Part shown: positions 4,128 through 31,294 of the stretch, piece by piece
Numbering within the stretch: position 1 is the first letter of the stretch
Layout of the letters: every line of letters starts with the position of its first letter
Source: a virus
Length of the DNA: 34,398 nucleotides
Strand: one strand, 5' to 3'
Virus record (IMG/VR): IMGVR_UViG_3300044615_001866
Coordinates: 1 to 34,398 of that record
Made by a program: the position numbers and the translations under genes
The notes under the pieces: model-generated
Databases searched by the model: none
Told to the model about the DNA's origin: nothing
Seen by the model: only the letters and a program-made list of their open reading frames with translations

Positions 4128-4613
4128 TTAAGATTCTTCTTGCAGAATCTTTGTCCACACACCCATCGAAGCCTCTTGGAGAGGACCCTCGATTGGATCG
4201 TCACGAAAGATAGACAACATCTCCCGCAAGGCTCGGTCTGCACCAGCGAGAATCAAACCTTGTTTGTCGAGGAGGATCTTCTCATCGTTAAGTTGCTTAA
4301 TTGAGCCTCTAAGTTCTTTCTGCATCATCGCGATGCGCGATGTGCCCATATCCTGTTTAACCATTCCCATGTCAATTGCTTCGCGCAGCTTGGCAATATC
4401 TTGCTGCATCGAATCAATCTCCATCTCAAGAAGACCGTTAAAATCTCTTTTTTTATACTCTTTTTTAGACCACTCATCACACTCCACGATGTTACCTGTA
4501 AACCCGAGGAATCGGGAATACAGGTACATCTGAATAGGAGAGCTTGTGCGTTTACAAAATGTAAGAAAGGATTCGCGGTCTTTGTCTGTTAAACCTTGAA
4601 TCCATTCTTTCAT
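4128..4613 (-). CDS. possible small terminase subunit
   Basis: A 161-residue helical protein directly upstream of the large terminase in transcription order. The N-terminus (DKDRESFLTFCKRTSSPIQM) could be a compact helical DNA-binding domain. Residues about 60-125 are rich in Leu, Met, Lys and Glu with heptad-like spacing, suggesting a coiled-coil oligomerisation core. That layout suits a small terminase, but no family motif is clear, so the call rests on position and build. Its ATG overlaps the stop of the preceding gene by four bases (4610-4613), indicating translational coupling. Confidence 0.45.
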   Translation of the reverse strand: MKEWIQGLTDKDRESFLTFCKRTSSPIQMYLYSRFLGFTGNIVECDEWSKKEYKKRDFNGLLEMEIDSMQQDIAKLREAIDMGMVKQDMGTSRIAMMQKELRGSIKQLNDEKILLDKQGLILAGADRALREMLSIFRDDPIEGPLQEASMGVWTKILQEES

Positions 4614-29966: not shown

Positions 29967-30497
29967 ATGGTAGATCCGTTCAACTGTTACGCCAAGCTAA
30001 AGGGTGAGGCAGATTATCTGCTTCATTACAGCAATTGGATTATTAAACACGAGGACCGTTGGACGGATCACTTCGGATTTAAAGCGGTAGAGCTGAATAG
30101 GGAGATTCTTCTAGAGGAAGAACCGCTACTGGCACTCGTTAATATGTATAATCCCATCGCCAGAATGGGGCTGCTGCGGGTCAAACCAAACAATTTTTAC
30201 GACTGGCACGTCGATGAGCATCGGCTGAGCTGCATCAACCTGTTACTGAGTACAGAAAATCACAGCCACACACTATTTGGCATCCAGTACGACCAGCTCA
30301 ATCGTGAGATCCTGGAGCTCAAATATGAGCCTAAACGTTTCTACCTGTTTAACAATCAGGTACAGCACTGCGTCTGTAATCTAGACGAAGATCGATACCT
30401 GTTCTCGATTTACTTCCAGGAAGAAATACGGTTCCAGGATGTCCGCAAGTTGCTCGAAGAGGCCGAGTTGCTTGCAGATCCCGAAGATTCACTTTAG
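29967..30497 (+). CDS. 2OG-Fe(II) oxygenase-like protein
   Basis: From ATG 29967 (a TTG or GTG start further up would overlap thyX), 176 residues. HVDEH at 81-85 gives an H-x-D pair, and QHCVCN (His 134) plus Arg 143 in DEDRYLFSIYF complete the iron and 2-oxoglutarate ligand pattern of a double-stranded beta-helix dioxygenase, near the Asp/Asn hydroxylase type. The substrate is unknown. It directly follows thyX, so a nucleotide or protein modification role in the same unit is possible. Confidence 0.65.
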   Translation: MVDPFNCYAKLKGEADYLLHYSNWIIKHEDRWTDHFGFKAVELNREILLEEEPLLALVNMYNPIARMGLLRVKPNNFYDWHVDEHRLSCINLLLSTENHSHTLFGIQYDQLNREILELKYEPKRFYLFNNQVQHCVCNLDEDRYLFSIYFQEEIRFQDVRKLLEEAELLADPEDSL

Positions 30498-30514
30498 AAT
30501 CTCACTGGTTCTGC

Positions 30515-31025
30515 AGACCCCTGTGCGCACAGGTGCCCCATGATCCTCGTCACTCATGGGATTCCGTCGGTTCAGAGTTGAAGCTGAGCTGCGATGAAGC
30601 AAGACAAGGCTCGGGCCGCACCCGGTAAGGTTCCTAACGCGGAACACCCTTGTCCTTCTTCAACGATCTATAAGACCGCCAATTTGGATCGGGCGATACG
30701 CTAAGCCGCGATACCGAAGCCAAAGGGTGGCGCGGTGAGCGAAGTTCCACCATTTACGGAAGTTTTCAGATTCAACTTCCTTGATGTAGGGACAACCGCG
30801 ATAAGTAAGGGTGGTCATGGGGATACCCACGTACCAACAATAGTATAAACAAAAGCGGAAATGTAGTCGTTTATACAGTAACAGAACTTGTTAAATTAAT
30901 ATAAAGATTTGAGGGTGCGACTCCTCCTTGGCCATGGGAAGAGCCGGTCAGTTACCAGAAGTAGGAAGCGATAAAAACTACTTCTCCCTCGTAATACGGG
31001 CCTGGCATCGCTCTTCTTCGGCCCA
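30515..31025 (+). ncRNA. candidate large structured RNA
   Basis: About 510 nt with no convincing gene but many perfect helices: CCTGTGCGCACAGG palindrome (30520); CCCATGA/TCATGGG (30537, 30554); GTTGAAG/CTTCAAC (30577, 30658) enclosing GACAAGG/CCTTGTC (30603, 30648), which encloses two hairpins CGGG/CCCG and GTTCC/GGAAC; GGAAGTT/AACTTCC (30758, 30774); TGGG-GATA-CCCA (30818); GTATAAAC/GTTTATAC (30843, 30869); AGAAGTAG/CTACTTCT (30957, 30978); GGGCC/GGCCC (30998, 31020). The nested multi-branch plan resembles ornate phage RNAs such as GOLLD or ROOL; class membership is not established. Confidence 0.6.
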
Positions 31026-31028
31026 CTG

Positions 31029-31034
31029 TATAAT
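31029..31034 (+). promoter_or_regulatory. consensus -10 element
   Basis: A perfect TATAAT, preceded by TG, lies 30 bases before the GTG at 31064, at the end of the structured-RNA region. No -35 match is visible at standard spacing. Confidence 0.45.
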
Positions 31035-31063
31035 AGACTCTATGCGCCTAAATTTCGTAACCC

Positions 31064-31294
31064 GTGGTAACCTTAACAAAACCCAAGCTAATAGGAACGG
31101 TAAGCTGTGATTCCGGCAGAATCTCTGTGCTGGATCCGTGTCATCTCGAGGTTTCTGATTCCGGTTCAGTTAGTCTTCCGGCATGGAATCTCCACACCAG
31201 CTTTAAAACGGAGCTCGGTGACGGCGAGTTCTGTGTTTACGCCCAGCGGGACCACCAAGGTCGACTCCGCCGCATCGTAATTGAACTGGAGTGA
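31064..31294 (+). CDS. 76-residue unknown protein
   Basis: GTG 31064 starts a beta-rich protein: LTKPKLIGTVSCDSGRISVL, then DSGSVSLPAWNLHTSF, ending GRLRRIVIELE. Asp/Gly turns between strands suggest a small beta-barrel. It follows the TATAAT at 31029, and its stop overlaps the next GTG. The function is unknown. Confidence 0.6.
   Translation: MVTLTKPKLIGTVSCDSGRISVLDPCHLEVSDSGSVSLPAWNLHTSFKTELGDGEFCVYAQRDHQGRLRRIVIELE

Follow-up and report, generated by a model that had tools for sequence, protein, structure and literature searches.

Between the thyX/oxygenase unit and the polA unit, the phage sequence studied here contains about half a kilobase of densely packed helices, and the question is whether this locus encodes one large structured RNA, as proposed in a preliminary description, or several separate elements. 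The whole stretch of DNA analyzed, an IMG/VR virus record of 34,398 bp (positions 1-34,398), is hereafter called the window. By its sequence it belongs to an S-EIV1-like cyanophage, since its 753-aa virion protein gave a sole match, to the freshwater Synechococcus phage S-EIV1 (51%), and both have the same gene order from thyX to polA. The freshwater phage setting suggested earlier was thus borne out, S-EIV1 being the nearest isolate. Syntenic relatives were detected via polA (L004) and via the small gene at 31067-31291 (L019-L023), while a search by the neighboring oxygenase revealed none. These relatives conserve the left part of the region (30506-30668) separately from the right part (30911-31024). 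That structured RNAs are present at the locus is near certain, and it is hardly in doubt that there are two of them rather than one. The region almost certainly consists of two small RNA genes on opposite strands, RNA-A and RNA-B, with an antisense protein gene between them (Table 1).

Table 1. Elements of the RNA-A/RNA-B locus (window coordinates unless a contig is named)
Feature	Position	Strand	Remarks
Swapped-gene segments	29970-30494; L004:1277-1909; L020:771-1721		
RNA-A promoter, sigma70-like	30472-30500	+	TTGCAG 30472-30477, 17 nt, TAGAAT 30495-30500; read from the sequence
RNA-A, small structured RNA	~30506-30668	+	about 160 nt; both ends predicted
RNA-A hairpin A	30520-30533	+	self-complementary loop: GCGC in the window, GGCC in relatives
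RNA-A hairpin B	30537-30560	+	loop with UCCUCGUC
RNA-A hairpin C	30571-30588	+	loop like AGUUGAAG
RNA-A forked domain	D 30603-30609/30648-30654; E 30612-30624; F 30630-30645	+	
DUF4278-like ORF	30660-30818	-	52 aa, MTTLTYRGCPYIKEVESENFRKWWNFAHRATLWLRYRGLAYRPIQIGGLIDR; Pfam DUF4278 E 0.003, below the Pfam cut-off
RNA-B	31024 to ~30911	-	~114 nt; start predicted from the -10 box; models R1, R3
RNA-B helix strands	31020-31024/30998-31002; 30911-30915 with CCCTC ending about 30991	-	
RNA-B palindromic tetranucleotide	30930-30933	-	apical-loop GGCC; most relatives have GAUC, one has AGCU
RNA-B kissing strand 2	30967-30972	-	AUCGCU on the RNA strand
RNA-B kissing strand 1	31007-31012	-	AGCGAU on the RNA strand
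RNA-B -10 box	31030-31035	-	TATTAT; overlaps TATAAT 31029-31034 (+) before the gene at 31067

The helices named in the preliminary description do exist. GTTGAAG (30577-30583) is complementary to CTTCAAC (30658-30664) and surrounds the GACAAGG/CCTTGTC stem, within which two hairpins are located. Of this nested arrangement, the inner helix and both hairpins are kept by compensatory changes, whereas the outer helix is not conserved: only the window and, with a shorter version, L004 have it, while elsewhere a AGUUGAAG-like sequence forms a hairpin loop. A pseudoknot made of the two outer strands was dropped on the same grounds. The whole 543 nt fold more stably than shuffled sequences (z -3.2), but this is weak and misleading support, as the signal comes mainly from the middle part (30669-30904; z -3.4), which is antisense to the protein gene, while RNA-A alone and RNA-B reached only -0.8 and -1.9, respectively. 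The signal beyond chance is the covariation among homologues, which had been named as a check and proved strong in both flanks.

The assumption that protein coding is poor in the region does not hold for positions 30660 to 30818. In the window, L019, L022 and L023, a DUF4278-like ORF lies on the minus strand between the RNAs, and substitutions are concentrated at third codon positions in four phages (e.g., 6, 4 and 23 by codon position), indicating that the gene is under purifying selection. A conserved protein frame, which had been regarded as an argument against a structured RNA, is therefore present in the middle third of the region only. In L004, a plus-strand gene for an aspartyl/asparaginyl hydroxylase takes the place between the RNA positions instead. 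The window further contains an inverted repeat (30844-30876; GTATAAAC..GTTTATAC) upstream of the DUF4278-like gene, which has similar counterparts in L023 and L022 and may be an operator or promoter.

RNA-A is preceded by a promoter-like sequence whose position is shared by relatives (L019, TTGACA-18-TATACT; L023, TTGACA-18-TATATT; L022, TTGACG-18-TAATTT; L004, TTGACA-17-CATAAT), the spacing of the -35 and -10 elements being 17 to 18 nt in all five phages checked. Relatives with helix-keeping changes were found in 20 viral contigs. As an A.C mismatch on one strand of a helix corresponds to a G.U pair on the other, the coding strand can be read from such changes: the distinct helix strand pairs, listed by hand and read on the plus strand, comprise 353 Watson-Crick, 18 G.U, five A.C and one other, which favors the plus strand. 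A run of T residues, indicative of a terminator, follows helix D in L176, L182 and L186. RNA-A also occurs in contigs without RNA-B. Rfam revealed nothing for it in the window or in its relatives, nor was the RNA-A pattern detected in 292 cyanobacterial genomes; RNA-A constitutes a second phage RNA family without an Rfam match. A first RNA-A DNA pattern and one for the loop of the 3' element gave mostly chance matches and were discarded, as were two chance matches of a second pattern (L244 and L251). Pairing of an RNA-A loop with RNA-B (CCUCGU/ACGAGG) was likewise rejected, since it holds in some phages and fails in L019 and L004. A single terminase (62.8%) places one group of RNA-A contigs (L241-L254) close to Synechococcus phage S-CBS4. 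In S-CBS4 itself (HQ698895), a forked domain resembling that of RNA-A is located on the minus strand at 4595-4528 and abuts a tRNA-Thr gene starting at 4527; in this stretch (4720-4456, minus), neither has a row in the annotation. Since this cultured phage appears to carry a copy of the RNA-A 3' domain, RNA-A is accessible to experiments.

For RNA-B, the first seven phages revealed five helices including a loop-loop kiss, with 95.7% of the cells paired and a covariation of 0.689, compared to 0.254 after shuffling and at most 0.162 when the alignment was slid. A degenerate pattern together with covariance model R1 yielded 42 further viral contigs (E 1e-14 to 1e-34), to which L250 was added later, so that RNA-B is now known from 50 viral contigs, each with a single copy. 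Some loop letters, among them part of the kiss, were fixed in the pattern, and loop conservation in the added contigs is therefore partly selected; the stems were absent from the pattern. Over 46 distinct sequences, fitted to the nested stems of the model, 95.9% of the base-pair cells are paired, covariation is 0.739 (0.224 shuffled) and two-sided changes affect 393 cells (122 shuffled). The 6-bp kissing helix, which is not contained in the model, is paired in 98.9% of cells in these sequences and shows two-sided changes in five of its six pairs.

The preliminary description had assigned the right end of the region to a plus-strand RNA. Read in this direction, the phage RNA-B stems show an excess of A.C over G.U (50 to 20, p 4e-4; 12 of the G.U pairs stem from one loop-closing pair); the corresponding stems of cyanobacteria (see below) gave 42 to 11 (p 2e-5). 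Both p values are only guides, the sequences being related. Due to this excess, a plus-strand reading of 30911-31024 is ruled out, and RNA-B is located on the minus strand. The TATAAT described downstream of the region is present at 31029-31034, but on the opposite strand it reads TATTAT (31035-31030) and is placed as the -10 box of RNA-B. TATAATA (31029-31035) would be usable as a -10 element on either strand, for RNA-B (minus) and for the gene at 31067 (plus), and is possibly a bidirectional promoter. In most S-EIV1-like contigs of the window's group, a TAnnnT motif is found at -18 to -20 from the RNA-B sequence AGAAG. In most contigs of a GC-rich group it lies about 15 nt further upstream and is followed by an extra hairpin; this short additional hairpin, of variable sequence, was seen between the -10 box and RNA-B in L193, L222, L220, L226 and other GC-rich contigs. 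No conserved -35 element was detected for RNA-B.

The only Rfam family with credible similarity, in the window and at the loci of its relatives, is CyVA-1 (RF02965), a little-studied sRNA of unknown function with a model of 77 nt. It gave weak minus-strand matches to the window (21.4 bits) and L023 (22.5 bits), and among 11 additional phage loci it matched six, in each case at the position and on the strand of RNA-B (best 27.3 bits, L214); all RNA-B scores (21-27 bits) lie below the gathering score of 41.4. RNA-B possesses the CyVA-1 main hairpin with its conserved 17-nt loop (CGAAGRAGR..GUCAG) on the Rfam strand and starts at this hairpin after the -10 box, while the first hairpin and the closing helix of the model are absent. 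Full-length CyVA-1 matches to L023 and L214 pair with neighboring sequence and have low scores. A genome scan for the CyVA-1 loop led to 13 cyanobacterial loci, in which the sequence 3' of the Rfam model contains a GUGGAGUUUUUGUCGCUUCCUCCAC-like hairpin, the loop of which forms a kiss with that of CyVA-1. On the reverse strand the kiss types are AGCGAC/GTCGCT, AACGAC/GTCGTT, AGCGAT/ATCGCT, AGCAAC/GTTGCT, GGCGAC/GTCGCC and AACGGT/ACCGTT. In addition, the loop of the first CyVA-1 hairpin forms a second pseudoknot with the 3' domain, and both pseudoknots covary. The whole structure is 90% paired, with two-sided changes in 25 of 43 pairs. As judged from these alignments, the RNA is about 190 nt long and has two pseudoknots, and the Rfam model does not extend beyond its 5' part; loci showing the covarying hairpin, the kiss and the second pseudoknot include L090, L091, L101, L113, L117 and L121. 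The idea that Rfam lists CyVA-1 on the wrong strand was ruled out by the A.C and G.U counts: Rfam has the strand right, and what falls short is the length of its model.

Compared with this extended CyVA-type RNA, as defined here, RNA-B likewise has a second hairpin that covaries and kisses the main loop with its own loop; by contrast, it is phage-borne, starts at the main hairpin and has neither the 5' hairpin nor the second pseudoknot, and RNA-B of the GC-rich group has an extra 5' hairpin of its own. The phage-only model R1 gave 23 matches in 96 kb of cyanobacterial loci and R3 gave 38 in 171 kb (best E 3.9e-5), in both cases only at the CyVA-type RNA and on one strand, and the selection of the loci had no bearing on the matches to the second hairpin. 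Vice versa, the cyanobacteria-only model R2 matched the window at E 3.9e-5, the best hit in 180 kb. Because the phage-only and cyanobacteria-only models find each other's RNAs, homology of RNA-B and the CyVA-type RNA is very probable, and RNA-B appears to be a 5'-shortened homologue of it. With strict filters, R3 found nothing in 386 cyanobacterial genomes; this result carries little weight as the same model matches known loci when searched alone. For CyVA-1, the comparison supplies the missing 3' part, adds two pseudoknots and reveals a viral branch in at least two cyanophage groups.

The CyVA-type RNA occurs sporadically, in 22 of 292 cyanobacterial genomes, with up to four copies in those inspected, sometimes close together. 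Close-set or tandem copies were seen at L121:1479-1879 and in L137 and L151, about 208 and 726 bp apart. In nine of 27 cyanobacterial loci (L129, L130, L136, L143-L148), a membrane-protein gene precedes the RNA on the same strand, a neighbor that gave no hint of function.

Among phages, the setting of RNA-B varies. S-EIV1-like phages carry it in their thyX/polA region, and their GC-rich relatives, with a capsid protein 68% to that of S-EIV1, have it in the structural-gene region. T4-like genes accompany it in other contigs, namely uvsW in L214 (72.6% to Synechococcus phage S-B68) and, judged by eye, a baseplate-like gene in L221. RNA-B was not found in any isolate; at the sensitivity used, S-EIV1 and 12 other cyanophage records contained none. 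Since the genomic neighbors differ that much, no single gene can be the cis target of RNA-B. Own promoters and changing gene neighborhoods make it rather likely that the RNAs act in trans. Separate transcription and trans action are what we infer beyond the folds, conservation, strands, homology and changing neighborhood, which are shown by the comparisons themselves. The best explanation, in which we place moderate confidence, is that both are stand-alone, trans-acting phage sRNAs and that RNA-B perhaps dimerizes and imitates the CyVA-type RNA. RNA-A, which folds into hairpins and the forked domain, would be transcribed from its own promoter and, in several relatives, end at an intrinsic terminator. 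RNA-B, which forms three hairpins, two of them locked by the 6-bp kiss, would be transcribed from its own -10 box; its gene is very probably common to cyanobacteria and their phages. In the infected cell, RNA-B might imitate, replace or compete with the CyVA-type RNA or its partner. Such imitation may not apply to the hosts of S-EIV1-like phages, since these are Synechococcus strains with small genomes, and in the cyanobacterial sample every genome below about 3 Mb went unmatched by the cyanobacterial model. An RNA gene present in both cyanobacteria and phages points to an infection process worth manipulating and offers a route to the function of CyVA-1.

A second RNA-B copy might be bound through the apical loop. 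In 24 of 32 distinct loops a palindromic tetranucleotide occurs at one position (GAUC 20, GGCC three, AGCU one), compared to none to two at shifted positions and a shuffled mean of 10.8; the switching thus comprises three states, with GAUC dominating. For loop L9.3 of OLE RNA, switching among GGCC, GAUC and AGCU has been taken to indicate that the loop kisses between molecules (PMC12286853). The palindromic loops of RNA-B and RNA-A suggest RNA-RNA dimers, and we regard dimerization as a tentative proposal that may well fail. That RNA-B, and perhaps RNA-A with its GGCC/GCGC loop, builds RNA-only dimers or larger particles, RNA-B being the viral version of a cyanobacterial RNA acting alike, seems unlikely; if true, both would be phage RNAs of very small size that work in the manner of OLE, ROOL and GOLLD. 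On the other hand, RNA-B could be a monomeric decoy of or substitute for the host CyVA-type RNA, with an intramolecular kiss, which binds a host protein, the palindrome being a protein site or due to chance. The homology and the conserved loops CGAAGAAGA and GUUUUU, common to the cyanobacterial RNA, agree with this view, but the palindrome changes as a unit (GAUC, GGCC, AGCU), which is unusual for a protein site, and there is no known partner; we consider it doubtful.

Trans-acting sRNAs also have to be weighed against cis-acting leaders, RNA-B being a 5' UTR element of the DUF4278 gene and RNA-A an attenuator-like leader of the Asp/Asn hydroxylase gene. Indeed, in the window, L019, L022 and L023 the DUF4278 ORF follows RNA-B and shares its strand, and in L004 and L176 the hydroxylase gene starts right after RNA-A, with an intervening T-run in L176. 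However, RNA-B has other neighbors elsewhere among phages and in cyanobacteria, and what comes after RNA-A is the antisense DUF4278 gene in the window and a tRNA in S-CBS4, making this reading quite improbable. It is very improbable that the repeats act as DNA, i.e., as an integration, recombination or replication site with palindromes extruding hairpins and genes swapped around them: the gene between the elements does vary among relatives (DUF4278, hydroxylase), but the strand-specific excess of G.U over A.C and the loop-loop pseudoknots are signatures of RNA, and promoters and terminators suit transcription. A single plus-strand RNA of about 510 nt, GOLLD- or ROOL-like, would account for the dense helices and the whole-region z of -3.2 but is scarcely credible, being ruled out by the two strands and the antisense gene, with left and right parts each occurring without the other and no Rfam match.

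What remains of the original proposal is that the locus is structured and phage-borne; instead of one half-kilobase RNA it harbors two, roughly 160 nt (RNA-A) and 114 nt (RNA-B) long. None of the models for GOLLD, ROOL, introns or tmRNA matched, and neither Rfam at the gathering score nor ARAGORN reported an RNA in the window, including group I and II introns and tmRNA. ROOL and GOLLD are phage-borne and often located near tRNA islands, and GOLLD members often exceed 800 nt (PMC12286853). The OLE, ROOL and GOLLD RNAs, likewise without an assigned function, resemble the RNAs of the locus in their kissing loops, and the suggested likeness survives in the palindrome switching of RNA-B as in OLE L9.3; by contrast, RNA-A and RNA-B are far smaller, lie on opposite strands, and their oligomers would be putative. 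The structured RNAs manA, wcaG and PhotoRC-II of cyanophages are found in potential 5' UTRs or with photosynthesis genes (PMC2864571). Like these, RNA-A and RNA-B are structured RNAs of cyanophages and aquatic metagenomes; unlike them, they are not bound to one gene, and they match none of these families.

The genes flanking both RNAs are exchanged among the relatives, the segments concerned (Table 1) including 2OG-oxygenase-like, Asp/Asn hydroxylase and ArdC-like genes, the last with an M78 peptidase.
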